A DNA stretch of 54,520 nt from Thermoflexia bacterium (GTDB lineage: Bacteria > Chloroflexota > Anaerolineae > B4-G1 > SLSP01): positions 1 to 54,520 of the forward strand of contig DUEJ01000107.1 of assembly GCA_011192175.1 (NCBI GenBank), in the 5' to 3' direction. Position 1 is the stretch's first letter; every line of letters starts with the position of its first letter. Of this stretch, positions 18,662-25,690 are shown in pieces. Below the pieces are notes generated by a model, which was not told where the DNA came from, did no database searches, and saw only the letters and a list, made by a program, of their open reading frames with translations. Position numbers and translations under genes: made by a program.

Positions 18662-20266
18662 TTAATTATGGAGAGAGGGATAAGGACTAGTAGGAATCTC
18701 AATCTCCAATTCCAGTCCGCCTGCGGGGGGCGACTTCACCGCTAAGGTACCAGAAAGTAATGAGACCCGTTCACTAATACCTACTAGCCCAAAATGTTTC
18801 TGCGCGGTCAATGCCGCCAGATCTACCGGCTCCGCCATCCCATAGCCATTATCAACCAAGCGCACCACCAGGCTAGCCATGTCCGTGCGCTGGAGGGAAA
18901 GTAGTACCTGCGTGGCGCTGGCGTGTTTCTGGATGTTACGCAATCCTTCTTGGATAATACGAAAAACCGAAAGTTCAATCGGTTCTGGCAAACGTCCCAA
19001 CCCTGGATCAATATCCAGCTCCACCGCAATCCCACTCCGGGTGGCCCACTGGCCTACCAACGAGCGAATGGCCGCCGAGAGACCATGATTATCAATCGTC
19101 GGCGGACGCAAGTTGCTGCAAACCTGACGCAGGCTACCCACTACTTGCCGGATACCCTGCCGAATTTGCGCCAATTCCAGAGGTTGCGCCTCAGAAGAAG
19201 GGTTCTCTATTTCTTCCAATTGATAATTATAACTCAGTAAATCTTGGATGATCTGATCATGTAACTCCCGGGCCAAGGCTTTGCGCTCGGCCTCCCGTTC
19301 ACTCATCAAGCGGCGGCCAGCATCTTGTAACGCCAGATTCAAGCTATCCAACGCTTCTAGTTGATTATTCAATCGCTCAATCAACTCGCGATTGAGCGAA
19401 TCTTTCTCTTCCAAATTCTGACGTAAGGTTAACTGATCCTGTCGTAAGGCCTCGGCCTGTTGTTGGGCGCGATGGTAGTTTTTAAACGCCCAGATCACCG
19501 GCGTGATGCGTGCTGGCTGCTTAGAACCGACAATCAGCTCCACAATCTCGCGGGGCGTAGTCTCAACGGTCCGCCGCAGGGCTAGTTGTTGCCCTTGGTA
19601 TAAAACCAGAATACGATCAGTAACGGAAAAAATCTGTTCCAAATCATCACTGCTCAGGATGACGGAGACCTGCTGTGCTCGCAAGGCCTCGATACGTTCC
19701 AATAGCTTCTCCTGCCGCGCGAAACTTAGCGCCTCTAGGGCATCATCCAGTAACAATAACCGGGAAGGGCGGCAGAGTGCTCGCGCCAACGCCACGACCT
19801 GTCTCTGTTCGTCAGAGAGGTTGACGGCCCGTTCCTTAAATAGGTGGGGAGACATCTCGAAGGCAATCAATAACTCGCGCGTTATCTTTAACATCTGCCG
19901 CTCTGCGGGCAGCAATTTTGGCCAGCTGGAGCCACAGATTTCACGTCCCAGAAACACATTGTGTGACACGTCCATATTATCGATCAACTGGGGAGCCTGT
20001 TGCACCATCGCGATGCCCAAACGTTGGGCCAGAGAAACGCTTTTAAGCACCACGGGGGTGCCATCCCAGATAATCTCACCCGCCGAAGGCGTATAAACGC
20101 CGCTGAGCAGCTTAAAAAGCGTGGATTTACCCGCGCCACGCTGGCCGACTACGCCCAGCACTTCGCCCGGCTCGAGAGCGAAGGTCACGTCCACCAATGC
20201 CGGGACTGCACCAAAGTATTGAGAGAGATGGTTAACTCTTAGGAGTTTCAATTTGTCGGTTTTCAT
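18662..20266 (-). CDS. Fusion protein: sugar-type ABC ATPase domain + coiled coil + NarL-type (HisKA_3/HATPase) histidine kinase, no TM segment
   Basis: Walker A GQRGAGKST (aa 41-49), Q-loop MVQQAPQLIDNMDVSHNVFLGRE, NLSDEQRQ, LLLLDD; then ERKALARELHDQIIQDLL (His336), RIIQEGLRNIQKHA, VDNGYGM, HFGLVGISERVSLLSGTL in one uninterrupted ORF. Confidence 0.92.
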   Translation of the reverse strand: MKTDKLKLLRVNHLSQYFGAVPALVDVTFALEPGEVLGVVGQRGAGKSTLFKLLSGVYTPSAGEIIWDGTPVVLKSVSLAQRLGIAMVQQAPQLIDNMDVSHNVFLGREICGSSWPKLLPAERQMLKITRELLIAFEMSPHLFKERAVNLSDEQRQVVALARALCRPSRLLLLDDALEALSFARQEKLLERIEALRAQQVSVILSSDDLEQIFSVTDRILVLYQGQQLALRRTVETTPREIVELIVGSKQPARITPVIWAFKNYHRAQQQAEALRQDQLTLRQNLEEKDSLNRELIERLNNQLEALDSLNLALQDAGRRLMSEREAERKALARELHDQIIQDLLSYNYQLEEIENPSSEAQPLELAQIRQGIRQVVGSLRQVCSNLRPPTIDNHGLSAAIRSLVGQWATRSGIAVELDIDPGLGRLPEPIELSVFRIIQEGLRNIQKHASATQVLLSLQRTDMASLVVRLVDNGYGMAEPVDLAALTAQKHFGLVGISERVSLLSGTLAVKSPPAGGLELEIEIPTSPYPSLHN

Positions 20267-20322
20267 ATTGGACTAGGTTAGCATAGCCTCTTATTCAATC
20301 AAGCCCGCTATAAAACAACGCA

Positions 20323-20360
20323 CCGGCGTCCCAGTTGAGGCCCTTGGATTGGGACGCCGG
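20323..20360 (-). terminator. Intercistronic hairpin between permease gene and ABC-kinase fusion gene
   Basis: CCGGCGTCCCA...TGGGACGCCGG, 11-bp perfect stem; only a weak T-tract. Confidence 0.55.
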
Positions 20361-20401
20361 CACGCTGCCTATTCATGGAGAAACCGGGGTTTCTGATCTT
20401 G

Positions 20402-21586
20402 CTACTTGCTGCTGCTCCGTGTGGCGACATCAAAGACCACTGCTGCCACAAGTACCGCTCCCCGGACAACGTACTGATAAGCGATATCGATGCCCATCAA
20501 GTTCATGCCACTAGTCAGGGACATGTAAACTAGCGCACCGATAAACGACCCCATAATTTTACCCACCCCCCCCGCCGCCGATACGCCGCCGATATACGCC
20601 GCCGCGATGGCGTCCAGCTCAAAGAGCGTGCCCGCCGTGGTGGTGGCGGATTGTAGCCGGGAAGCGAATAGAATGCCCGAGAGAGCGGAAAGCATCCCCA
20701 TTGAGCCGAAGACCATATAGGTAATGTTCTTCACATTGATGCCACTCAACTCGGCAGCTTCTGGATTGCCGCCTACGGCGTAAACATGCCGGCCAACCAC
20801 CGTTTGCGTGGTCACGAAGTGGTAAATACTCACTACCAATAATACGACCACAACAGTCCAAGAGAGGCCATTATATCCCGCCAGCACCCAAGTAATGAGA
20901 GCTATTAACACCGAGACAAATACCAATTCCAAGATAAACATATCCTGGGGCAAGACTTCAAAGTCGTAAGCCTGTTTCTCTTTGCGACCACTGAGGGTAC
21001 TTTTAATAAACAGCATGATCGCCGCAACCCCCAATAACAAAGTCAGTTTGTGCATCTCTGGTAAGAAATTGCTCAAGCCAGGAATATCCGGGATGTAACC
21101 ATTGCCGATAGCATTAAAGATATTATCATTGATAATGATCGTCCCGGTGCCCGCCGTGACCAGTAACAAGGCGCCGCGATAAATCAACCAGCCCGCCAGA
21201 GAAGTCACAAAAGAGGGAATGCCCAACTGCGCCACCGGGAAAGCGGTAATCAATCCGGCCAGCGCCCCGAGCACTAACAGCAGGGGAATAACCACATACA
21301 CTGGAATATGCCAGAACGATAGTGCAATCGCCGCTATCGCGCCCAGAAAACCAGAGAGAAAGCCCACCGACAAGTCAATATGTTGAATGACGATCACTAA
21401 CGTCATCCCCACTGCTAAGATCGCAATATAACCCGTTTGATTCAGCAAGTTACTGATATTGCGTGACGAAATAAAGACACCATCCGTAGTAATGGTAAAG
21501 ATCGTCATGATGGCAAATAGGGCAATATACATGCCGTATTCGCGGATATTTTCCTTCAAAACCTTCTGCAAATCCCGAAAAAACAT
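20402..21586 (-). CDS. Sugar ABC transporter permease (XylH/GguB-like)
   Basis: 394 aa; NLLNQTGYIAILAVGMTLVIVIQHIDLSVGFLSG...VYAVGGNPEAAELSGINVK...GGVSAAGGVGKIMGS. Confidence 0.93.
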   Translation of the reverse strand: MFFRDLQKVLKENIREYGMYIALFAIMTIFTITTDGVFISSRNISNLLNQTGYIAILAVGMTLVIVIQHIDLSVGFLSGFLGAIAAIALSFWHIPVYVVIPLLLVLGALAGLITAFPVAQLGIPSFVTSLAGWLIYRGALLLVTAGTGTIIINDNIFNAIGNGYIPDIPGLSNFLPEMHKLTLLLGVAAIMLFIKSTLSGRKEKQAYDFEVLPQDMFILELVFVSVLIALITWVLAGYNGLSWTVVVVLLVVSIYHFVTTQTVVGRHVYAVGGNPEAAELSGINVKNITYMVFGSMGMLSALSGILFASRLQSATTTAGTLFELDAIAAAYIGGVSAAGGVGKIMGSFIGALVYMSLTSGMNLMGIDIAYQYVVRGAVLVAAVVFDVATRSSSK

Positions 21587-21597
21587 TTTGAGCCTCC

Positions 21598-23121
21598 TCA
21601 GTAATCCGTTGCTAGACCCATGATATTCTCTTGAGTGGCTTCCCCGGCCGGCATTTCTCCGACGATTTTACCGCCAGAGACAACGTAAATCCGGTCGCTC
21701 ATGCCTAGTACCTCCGGCAACTCAGATGATATCATGATAATACTCATCCCTTCTTGCACTAGCCGATTCATAATTGTATAAATTTCATACTTGGCACCCA
21801 CGTCAATACCACGGGTGGGTTCATCCAAAATCAAGATATCCGGTTTGACAAATAAGCATTTAGCCAAACTGACCTTCTGCTGATTACCACCGCTTAAATT
21901 CCCCACCTTTTGTTCCACGCTAGGCGTCTTGATACTCAGAGAGCGCCGATATTCATTCGCCACTTTGATCTCAGCATTATTATCAATCCTCCCCCGCAGG
22001 GAAATCTCCTCTAAATTTGCCAACGTGATATTCTGCTTCACGTCCTGGATCAAAATCAGGCCATCTCCTTTGCGATCTTCGGTGAGGTACACTAACCCCG
22101 CCACTAGCGCATCATGCGGATGGCTAAACTTCATGAGTGTCCCTCGCACAAATATCTCCCCGCTAACACGATAATTAGCGGCGTTTCCAAATAGGCTTAA
22201 TGCCAACTCTGTCCGTCCGGCGCCCATCAACCCTGCCAGCCCGACAATTTCACCTTTTCTGACGTTGAAATTGATGTCTTTCAGGATTTCTCGCCCCAGT
22301 TGCGGATCATAGGCCTGCCAATTTTTAACCTCGAGCGCGACCTCTGTGGAAATTTCATGCTCTCTAGGCGGATAGATATTATCGATCTCGCGTCCCACCA
22401 TGTACTTGATTAACGCGGACTCGGATGCTTCACCCGCACTGGCATCCAGCGTACAAATAGTCTGCCCATCGCGCAAGACAGTGACGGTATCGGCAATATC
22501 TATGATCTCCTTCAATTTATGGGAAATCAAGATGCAGGTAACCCCTTGGGCACGCTGCTCACGCAGCAAGCGCAATAAATTCTCACTATCATCTTCATTC
22601 AGCGCCGCCGTCGGCTCGTCTAAGATCAAGATACTCACATTGCGATGTAATGCTTTGGCGATTTCCACCAATTGCTGCTGCCCTACCCCCAAATTTTTGA
22701 TCTTGGTAGAAGGGTTCACATCCAATCCAACACGCTTCAGTATCACCGCAGTCTGTTTGATGGTTTCGTTCCAATCGATCGCGAGACCTTTACTGATTTC
22801 TTGACCTAGGAAGATGTTCTCATAGACCGACAATTCAGGAATCAGCGCCAATTCCTGATAGATGATAGCCACACCGGCCTGTTCGCTCTCGCTGATATGC
22901 TTATATGCCTGCACTTCTCCGTGCAACAAAATATCGCCGGTGTACGTCCCAAAGGCATGTACCCCGCTCAAGACTTTCATTAAGGTAGATTTTCCTGCGC
23001 CGTTCTCCCCCACCAAACCATGAATCTCACCCTCGGCGACCGTGAAACTAACATCGTCTAGGGCTTTCACGCCGGGGAACTCTTTAGTAATGTTCCGCAT
23101 CTCCAATATAGGAGCACCCAT
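21598..23121 (-). CDS. Sugar ABC transporter ATP-binding protein, two NBDs (XylG/GguA-like)
   Basis: 507 aa; GLVGENGAGKSTLMKVLSG, LGVGQQQLVEIAKAL, LILDEPTAAL; second half GLMGAGRTELALSLFG, NLSGGNQQKVSLAKCL, LILDEPTRGIDVGAKYEIY. Confidence 0.96.
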   Translation of the reverse strand: MGAPILEMRNITKEFPGVKALDDVSFTVAEGEIHGLVGENGAGKSTLMKVLSGVHAFGTYTGDILLHGEVQAYKHISESEQAGVAIIYQELALIPELSVYENIFLGQEISKGLAIDWNETIKQTAVILKRVGLDVNPSTKIKNLGVGQQQLVEIAKALHRNVSILILDEPTAALNEDDSENLLRLLREQRAQGVTCILISHKLKEIIDIADTVTVLRDGQTICTLDASAGEASESALIKYMVGREIDNIYPPREHEISTEVALEVKNWQAYDPQLGREILKDINFNVRKGEIVGLAGLMGAGRTELALSLFGNAANYRVSGEIFVRGTLMKFSHPHDALVAGLVYLTEDRKGDGLILIQDVKQNITLANLEEISLRGRIDNNAEIKVANEYRRSLSIKTPSVEQKVGNLSGGNQQKVSLAKCLFVKPDILILDEPTRGIDVGAKYEIYTIMNRLVQEGMSIIMISSELPEVLGMSDRIYVVSGGKIVGEMPAGEATQENIMGLATDY

Positions 23122-23223: not shown

Positions 23224-25392
23224 CTACTTCTCGAAGTCAGCAGCGTCGTAATAACCCGAATCAATCAAGACTGCTTGGACATTATCGGCATCCACCGAGA
23301 CCACGGCGGATTGAATGGCCGGAACTTCAGTGGCGCCGTTATCATACGCGCCTTTGGCGGTGGGTTCTGCGCCCTGCAGCAGAGCTACTGCCGCATTGAT
23401 GGCGTCCTGTACCAGGGTGCGGACGTCTTTGAAGACAGTCATAGACTGTTTGCCATCAATGATGTATTGTACCGAAGCCTTCTCCGCATCCTGACCGGTG
23501 ACCGAGAAGCTCGTGACCTCTTTATCCGCCGCAAACGCATCCGCAATCGCGCGCGCCGTGCCATCGTTCGGAGCCAAAATGAAGACGGCGCCTTTGTCCT
23601 CGGCCCGTGCCATCGTCAAGTTAGCCTCGGCCAAGTTCTTGGCCGTATTGAAGTCCCAGTTGGTGGTGACCTGCCCGATAATCTGCGCCTGCTCATCGCG
23701 GGTTAGCTCGGCCTGGCCTTGTAATTCCTCAGCCGCACTGGAGTTCTTGATGACGAAGGTGCCGTCGGCGATTTTGGGCTGCAAGACGCTCCACGCGCCC
23801 TGGAAGAAAATGAAGGCGTTGTTATCGGAAGCGGCGCCAGCATAGAGGTAGAGCGGGTTGCCTTGCCCCTCGGCCCGGTCAACTAAATATTGCGCCTGTT
23901 GCGCACCCACCGCCACGCTATCGAAAGTCACGTAGTAATCTACGGCGTCCGTGTCACGGATCAGGCGGTCGTAGGAGATAACCTTGACGCCAGCCTCAGC
24001 GGCGGCGTTAGCTGCCGCGGCGGCGGCGGTGCCATCCTGCGGGCAAATGATCAATACTTTGACGCCCTTGGTCAGCAACGCCTCAACATTTTCTTTTTCC
24101 TTAGCGGAAGAACCCTGGCTGAAGAGAATCTCCACATCGTAGCCGGCCTTCGCGAAGGCGTCACGGAAGCGTTCTTCATCTTGAATCCAGCGCGGTTCAT
24201 CTTTCGTCGGCAATACCACTCCCACTGCCAATTTGCCTTCGGGGGCAACGGCCCCTGCGTCTAACCCGGTGAAGTCAGCCGCATCGTAATAGCCAGAATC
24301 AAGCAAGGCCGCCTTGACGTTGTCTGAGTCCACCGAAACCACCGCGGATTGAATAGCGGGAACATCCGTGGCGCCGTTATTATAGGAACCGCTGGCCTCG
24401 GGGTTCTTACCTTCAAGCAAGGCCACTGCTGCATTGATGGCGTCCTGTACCAGCGTGCGGACGTCTTTGAAGACGGTCATGGATTGCTTGCCATCAATGA
24501 TGTACTGCACCGACGCTTGCTCGGCATCCTGCCCGGTCACCAAATAGCTCGTGACCTCCTTATCCGCGGCAAACGCATCGGCGATCGCGCGCGCCGTGCC
24601 ATCGTTCGGAGCCAAGATGAAGACGTCGCCCTTATCCGCGGTTACCGCAGCAGTCAGGTTGGCCTCGGCCAAATTCTTGGCCGTGTTAAAGTCCCAGTTG
24701 GTGGTGACCTGCCCGATGATCTGCGCCTGCTCGTCACGGGTCAGTTCCGCCTTACCCATCAAATCAATGGCTTCACTGGAGTTCTTGATCACGAAGGTGC
24801 CATCGGCGATTTTGGGCTGCAAAACGCTCCACGCGCCCTGGAAGAAGATGAAGGCGTTGTTATCGGAAGCGGCGCCAGCGTAGAGGTAAAGCGGGTTGCC
24901 TTGCCCCTCGGCCCGGTCAACCAAGTATTGCGCCTGTTGCGCACCCACCGCCACGCTATCGAAAGTCACGTAATAATCTACCGCGTCCGTGTCACGGATC
25001 AGGCGGTCGTAGGAGATAACCTTGACGCCAGCCTCAGCCGCCGCATTAGCTGCCGCTGCTGCCGCAGTCCCATCTTGCGGGCAGATGATAATTACCTCAA
25101 CCCCCTTGGTGATCAGCGCCTCGACGTTCTCTTTCTCCTTCGCCGAAGAACCCTGGCTAAAGAGAATCTCCACATCATAGCCGACTGCACCCAGCATATC
25201 GCGGAAGCGCGTCTCATCCTGAATCCAGCGCGGCTCATCTTTCGTCGGTAATACCACGCCAACTGCTAGTTTCTCTGCTGGCTCAGTATCGGCGGGGGCA
25301 TCGGTAACTTCCGCATCTCCGCCACAAGCAACAAGAAGCATTGCAGCCAAAACCAGGAGCGCTAAAACAGCCAACAAATTTTTTCTAAACAT
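23224..25392 (-). CDS. Tandemly duplicated sugar-binding lipoprotein (two XylF/ChvE-like periplasmic-binding modules in one chain)
   Basis: MFRKNLLAVLALLVLAAMLLVACGG lipobox; LAVGVVLPTKDEPRWIQDE...DSGYYDAADF occurs twice, about 333 aa each, joined by TGLDAGAVAPEGK. Confidence 0.95.
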   Translation of the reverse strand: MFRKNLLAVLALLVLAAMLLVACGGDAEVTDAPADTEPAEKLAVGVVLPTKDEPRWIQDETRFRDMLGAVGYDVEILFSQGSSAKEKENVEALITKGVEVIIICPQDGTAAAAAANAAAEAGVKVISYDRLIRDTDAVDYYVTFDSVAVGAQQAQYLVDRAEGQGNPLYLYAGAASDNNAFIFFQGAWSVLQPKIADGTFVIKNSSEAIDLMGKAELTRDEQAQIIGQVTTNWDFNTAKNLAEANLTAAVTADKGDVFILAPNDGTARAIADAFAADKEVTSYLVTGQDAEQASVQYIIDGKQSMTVFKDVRTLVQDAINAAVALLEGKNPEASGSYNNGATDVPAIQSAVVSVDSDNVKAALLDSGYYDAADFTGLDAGAVAPEGKLAVGVVLPTKDEPRWIQDEERFRDAFAKAGYDVEILFSQGSSAKEKENVEALLTKGVKVLIICPQDGTAAAAAANAAAEAGVKVISYDRLIRDTDAVDYYVTFDSVAVGAQQAQYLVDRAEGQGNPLYLYAGAASDNNAFIFFQGAWSVLQPKIADGTFVIKNSSAAEELQGQAELTRDEQAQIIGQVTTNWDFNTAKNLAEANLTMARAEDKGAVFILAPNDGTARAIADAFAADKEVTSFSVTGQDAEKASVQYIIDGKQSMTVFKDVRTLVQDAINAAVALLQGAEPTAKGAYDNGATEVPAIQSAVVSVDADNVQAVLIDSGYYDAADFEK

Positions 25393-25690
25393 GTCCATCC
25401 TCCATAAAGTTAGGTTCATACAGGGTAAAATTAACTAAATTCTCTCTCCTGAGAGTTAGAGTTTCTCTGACTTCTCTTCCCACTTACCTCCTTAGCTCCT
25501 ATAAAGCACCTCCAATCAACAACCGCTTCATCAGATTGACGCACAAGATAATCATAGCCTCAGCCTGGGGTAGAATCAATCTCTCTTCCCCTTTTTGAGC
25601 TAGTGTTTACCCTCAAGCCGGTCGGGGGGTTTCCCCTAACGACCCGCGAAAATACCATCATGCAGGCGCCAGACGCACTAGCTCGCCAGT

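Follow-up and report, generated by a model that had tools for sequence, protein, structure and literature searches.

What does the ATPase domain of a sugar ABC importer do in the sensor position of a histidine kinase? The question is raised by a single gene of the window, by which we mean the whole stretch of DNA analysed (54,520 nucleotides of contig DUEJ01000107.1, from a Thermoflexia bacterium). Its product joins an ABC ATPase domain (NBD) to a HisKA_3 kinase. In our judgement this fusion is rather likely to be a soluble histidine kinase that receives its input through an ATPase subunit of a CUT2-type sugar importer, one that has lost its catalytic ability. We find it fairly probable, too, that an importer has here been turned into a receptor: the dead NBD would dock on a sugar permease and pass the state of the permease to the kinase. 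The features concerned are collected in Table 1.

Table 1 Coordinates of the fusion gene, its domains and the neighbouring features in the window.
Feature	Position	Strand	Basis
Cognate response regulator, REC-LuxR(GerE)-REC, 352 aa	17508..18566	(-)	Pfam: two REC and GerE
NBD-histidine kinase fusion, 534 aa	18662..20266	(-)	ORF and Pfam; conserved in 73 loci
HATPase_c, N-box Asn444	18689..18973	(-)	Pfam; Asn in 73/73
HisKA_3 dimerisation / phosphoacceptor domain, His336 in LARELHD	19100..19288	(-)	Pfam; His invariant in 73/73
Conserved coiled-coil linker, residues 251-326, helix continuous with the kinase dimerisation helix	19289..19516	(-)	AlphaFold2
Apparent pseudo-ATPase NBD, residues 8-248	19523..20245	(-)	73-sequence alignment and fold
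Intercistronic hairpin, stem of ~20 bp, between the permease and fusion genes	20313..20370	(-)	
GguB-like sugar permease (BPD_transp_2), canonical coupling loop AVGGNPEAAELSGI	20402..21586	(-)	Pfam, NCBIfam
GguA/XylG-like double-NBD ATPase, first half with all motifs	21598..23121	(-)	
Sugar-binding lipoprotein, 731 aa, two tandem ChvE/XylF-like domains	23224..25419	(-)	

The reading frame of the fusion runs from ATG to stop on the minus strand, and the single uninterrupted ORF described in the initial annotation stands. Pfam recognizes ABC_tran at residues 26-177 (E 1e-26), HisKA_3 at 327-389 (E 1e-10) and HATPase_c at 432-526 (E 4e-6). The AlphaFold2 model, built from a 17-row alignment with a mean pLDDT of 76, contains an ABC NBD predicted with confidence, a HATPase domain predicted less confidently and a single helix (residues 251-353) that spans the coiled coil and enters the kinase dimerisation helix. 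Pfam and the model together thus confirm the domain order first proposed: NBD, coiled coil, HisKA_3, HATPase. Both the phosphoacceptor His and the N-box of HATPase_c that characterize a NarL-type (HisKA_3) kinase are present, and a LuxR-type regulator, as such kinases have for a partner, is encoded next to it. The linker keeps a recognizable motif across relatives, TPxIWAL...LNrqL...LDxxNxALQ.

Neither PAS, GAF, CHASE nor any other input domain is found in the fusion by Pfam, and no transmembrane segment is indicated: its maximal 19-residue hydropathy is 1.31, against 2.67 in the neighbouring permease. Both absences had been claimed from the letters of the sequence, and they are upheld; the placement of the NBD in the sensor position is supported as well. 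Foldseek matches of the model in the PDB are ABC ATPases; these and the kinase domain of VraS are matched only as separate proteins, a fusion of the two being absent among solved structures. Similarly, no NCBIfam model covers both the NBD and the kinase parts, and a literature search, limited to open-licence papers, returned no description of such a fusion.

The fusion is widespread in the lineage of the window. Full-length relatives with 41-90% identity are carried by 40 of the 298 genomes from its class (Anaerolineae) and by other classes of Chloroflexota, single-contig genomes among them. The latter rule out an assembly artefact, the first of the two objections that the initial annotation had raised against itself. 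A scan of 85,462 species gave 17 matches, all 17 in Chloroflexota; it detects close relatives only and allows no inference of absence elsewhere. Two longer frames, of 1175 aa (G514) and 742 aa (G628), were set aside as distinct forms: their extra parts resemble an unrelated open frame and their aligned core is normal. Plasmid matches covering 80% of the query at 25-29% were also rejected, the best of them being annotated as an ordinary sugar ABC ATPase of a ribose-type operon.

In the tree, the fusion NBDs form one clade (support 1.00), joined with single-NBD, FrcA-like ATPases (0.95). Because they form one clade, the fusion most likely arose once, as far as the sequences tell. The likeness to the XylG-like neighbour claimed at first holds in part: identity between the window NBD and the first half of the neighbouring ATPase is 34%, and the best NCBIfam matches of the NBD are YtfR, XylG and RbsA. 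The tree nonetheless places it with the single-domain ATPases, which rules out descent from the neighbouring double ATPase.

What remains of ATPase function in this domain? The window NBD retains Walker A (GQRGAGKST) and Walker B Asp174. Its signature reads LSDEQ, with Glu153 in place of the second Gly; the catalytic Glu is replaced by Asp175 and the H-loop His by Ser206. Of the 73 aligned fusions, 71 retain Walker A Lys and all retain Walker B Asp. No sequence has the H-loop His (Ser takes its place in 68), and an acidic residue replaces the second Gly of LSGGQ throughout (Glu in 72, Asp in one). Of the hallmarks of a functional CUT2 ATPase, Walker A and B are therefore there, and the second signature Gly and the H-loop His are missing. 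The kinase His and the N-box Asn are invariant in the same alignment, and the neighbouring transporter ATPases retain their catalytic motifs. Also kept is NxFLGxE, a helical stretch after the Q-loop that is common to working ATPases (Glu in all 73, Gly in 71, Phe in 68).

The fusion NBD thus appears to be a conserved pseudo-ATPase. Since the substitution is near-invariant over such divergence, the catalytic loss would be a feature rather than decay. ATP may bind and stabilise the domain and is probably not hydrolysed, although a little hydrolysis may persist, since the catalytic-Glu position still holds Glu in 34 of the 73 sequences (Asp in 33). The loss of these motifs was a point absent from the initial annotation, and its picture of an ordinary XylG-like ATPase that reports ATP has to be given up, with the H-loop His gone and the signature Gly acidic in every member. 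As a separate observation, the NBDs of two fusions (L060 and L061) carry an insertion of ~27 aa after the Q-loop, where the permease contact is expected.

A product of chance or of assembly, or an NBD that decays without any sensory role, would be compatible with the missing catalytic residues. Such an origin is hardly credible: the fusion recurs in 73 loci and in single-contig genomes, with its junction, coiled coil and specific substitutions conserved, and at the level of sequence this conservation already refutes it. The main rival lies elsewhere. The NBD could be a purely cytosolic ATP/ADP sensor, permease-free, that reports the energy state of the cell, the nearby sugar operon being its regulated target only. 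The near-universal Walker A Lys and Walker B Asp and the lack of a transmembrane part agree with it, but two members do without the Lys, and the conservation of NxFLGxE would be needless. We hold this pure nucleotide sensor to be unlikely, and further evidence on both sides comes from gene neighbourhoods, considered below.

The genes of the window follow the order binding protein, ATPase, permease, fusion and response regulator, as stated in the initial annotation. A CUT2 component lies at most 9 kb from the fusion in 62 of the 73 loci, so that the second objection, a lack of conservation beside sugar ABC operons, does not hold either. The other 11 loci include five of the Herpetosiphon-like kind and several close to contig ends. 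In 42/73 loci the gene immediately before the fusion codes for a permease or SBP' (SBP' is described below), and in 18 loci it codes for a permease of the window type.

The REC-LuxR-REC regulator was found in 42 genomes; it is present in 38 of the 40 fusion genomes (Fisher p = 5e-41). Among the four genomes with the regulator and no detected fusion, one contig (G075) ends inside a permease gene of the PERM' type introduced below, where the fusion would follow. The domain order of this regulator is unusual, with its second receiver at the C-terminus, and nearly all genomes with its close form have a single copy.

The Herpetosiphon-like genomes have the fusion next to an unrelated gene, away from transporter genes, as a permease-free nucleotide sensor would allow. 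There, the single regulator is divergent to an SBP-ATPase-permease operon; therefore, the link with sugar holds without adjacency of the kinase. Of the 34 genomes having the window-type permease, 16 are without the fusion, which rules out the fusion as an obligatory part of the transporter.

In 14 loci of relatives, a divergent sugar permease of 320-400 aa, called PERM' here, precedes the fusion and has no ATPase of its own. In about half of these it is followed by SBP', a binding protein of ~340 aa, again with no ATPase. All PERM' proteins fall into one clade (support 0.99), in which the coupling loop no longer has its GGN and typically reads GxxERAL. Its sister permeases in three loci (L133, L134 and L135) keep GGNxxA and occur with a double ATPase and related binding proteins. 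From these sequences, PERM' has apparently been freed from transport duty. Another locus (L088:10685-13021) carries a binding protein and a canonical-loop permease with no adjacent ATPase, directly upstream of the fusion; a receptor importer may have arisen there by a second route.

Evolutionary distances of PERM' track the fusion NBD (partial r 0.72, p 0.0005, in a small sample of n=14) and not the kinase half (-0.16), with a jackknife range of 0.49-0.97 for the difference. The regulator in nine PERM' loci is also nearer the NBD (0.46, against 0.04 for the kinase), so the effect may be partly a general one. A pure nucleotide sensor leaves unexplained all three of these traits: a permease without an ATPase, the change in its coupling loop and the agreement of its distances with those of the NBD.

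Docking of the NBD on a permease has its stronger evidence, within what sequences can offer, in those relatives with PERM' beside the fusion. At the threshold used, neither PERM' nor SBP' was found in the genome of the window, and the distances of window-type permeases follow the NBD no more closely than the kinase; co-evolution of this permease with the NBD was set aside accordingly. For these two reasons docking in the window is extrapolated from the relatives, and it is by homology that the window NBD probably docks on a working permease.

With a working permease as the partner, competition with the working ATPase for this permease, put forward in the initial annotation, has to be weighed; the fusion would then both throttle transport and sense flux. 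The sole permease of window-type loci retains the canonical loop, which has to work with the ATPase, and in 18 loci the fusion gene comes right after this permease type, as competition would have it. The absence of an NBD preference in its distances speaks against this, however, and the double-NBD ATPase is expected to fill both docking sites; the PERM' loci avoid competition entirely. We regard competition as quite unlikely.

Under the reading that we prefer, that of an importer turned receptor, the two NBDs of a kinase dimer would dock on a sugar permease at its cytoplasmic coupling loops. The partner would be the dedicated receptor permease in relatives (PERM' with SBP', no ATPase of their own) and, in the window, most likely the operon's own GguB-like permease. 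Binding-protein and sugar occupancy would alter the permease and, hence, the spacing of the two NBDs, which the long coiled coil would relay to the HisKA_3 domain. The kinase would then phosphorylate the regulator, and the regulator would control the sugar transport operon. A wider version is quite plausible, if just short of probable: a whole ABC sugar importer would have become a receptor, with a non-transporting binding protein and permease and a dead ATPase pair on the kinase as cytoplasmic read-out. The dead NBD would then be a sensory class of its own across Chloroflexota, reading a working transporter in window-type loci.

Kinases coupled to transporters are already known. They include the receptor, HisKA_3 kinase and LuxR-type regulator of UhpC-UhpB-UhpA, the histidine kinase CbrA with its fused SLC5 transporter domain, and the coupling of PhoU and PhoR (PMC8871633). 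In BceAB-BceS-like modules, an ABC transporter senses and activates the two-component system (PMC7438565). By sequence, the closest relatives of the NBD are CUT2 importer ATPases (XylG, RbsA, GguA and the single-domain FrcA-like ones), which share its fold; unlike them, it has no H-loop His or signature Gly and is joined to a kinase.

UhpC is a homologue of a transporter, and the logic of its system is the same: a transporter-like receptor acts on a HisKA_3 kinase, and this on a LuxR-type regulator that controls the transporter. The transporter is a secondary one there and an ABC importer here, where the ATPase subunit is fused to the kinase. A receptor paralogue encoded with the kinase, as in that system, is compatible with the 14 PERM' relatives; no such separate receptor permease was found in the window or its genome. 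CbrA resembles the fusion in that part of a transport protein is joined to a kinase. In CbrA, however, this part is a membrane transporter domain, whereas here it is a soluble ATPase subunit only.

ABC transporter state drives the two-component system in BceAB-BceS as well. There, a separate kinase works with an active ATPase; in the fusion, the two are joined in a single protein and the ATPase part is apparently dead. Nor is there a separate membrane kinase by a BceAB permease, the kinase being fused and the permease belonging to BPD_transp_2. PstSCAB-PhoU-PhoR has in common that importer state is reported to a kinase; its linker protein PhoU and its membrane kinase set it apart from the fusion.

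New in the present case is that an apparent pseudo-ABC-ATPase serves as the input of a kinase, together with a permease that seems to have left transport. In known sensor-transporters the route from importer to kinase is usually unclear and involves separate proteins, whereas the ATPase subunit here is covalently the kinase input. Hydrolysis motifs are lost, docking features are kept and the permease of relatives is apparently off transport duty, so that transport and signalling would be separable within one system. If true, the ABC ATPase fold joins the list of kinase input domains. The proposal should be testable in cultured Chloroflexota relatives.

The operon has further traits of its own. 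Between the permease and fusion genes, the hairpin folds with -49.8 kcal/mol (z -2.7) and resembles a terminator site. It is a possible attenuator or partial terminator and could set the ratio of transporter to kinase. In four loci (L017, L021, L023 and L024), close relatives of the window permease occur with a single-NBD ATPase and not the usual double-NBD one.

The double nature of the window binding protein was absent from the initial annotation: it is an internal tandem duplication with halves 86% identical. Several relatives have double binding proteins as well, and one has a binding protein of 1439 aa. The halves are more alike within a protein (84-95% identical) than to the window copy (36-81%), which, together with the 1439-aa form, points to repeated duplication or gene conversion in these sequences.
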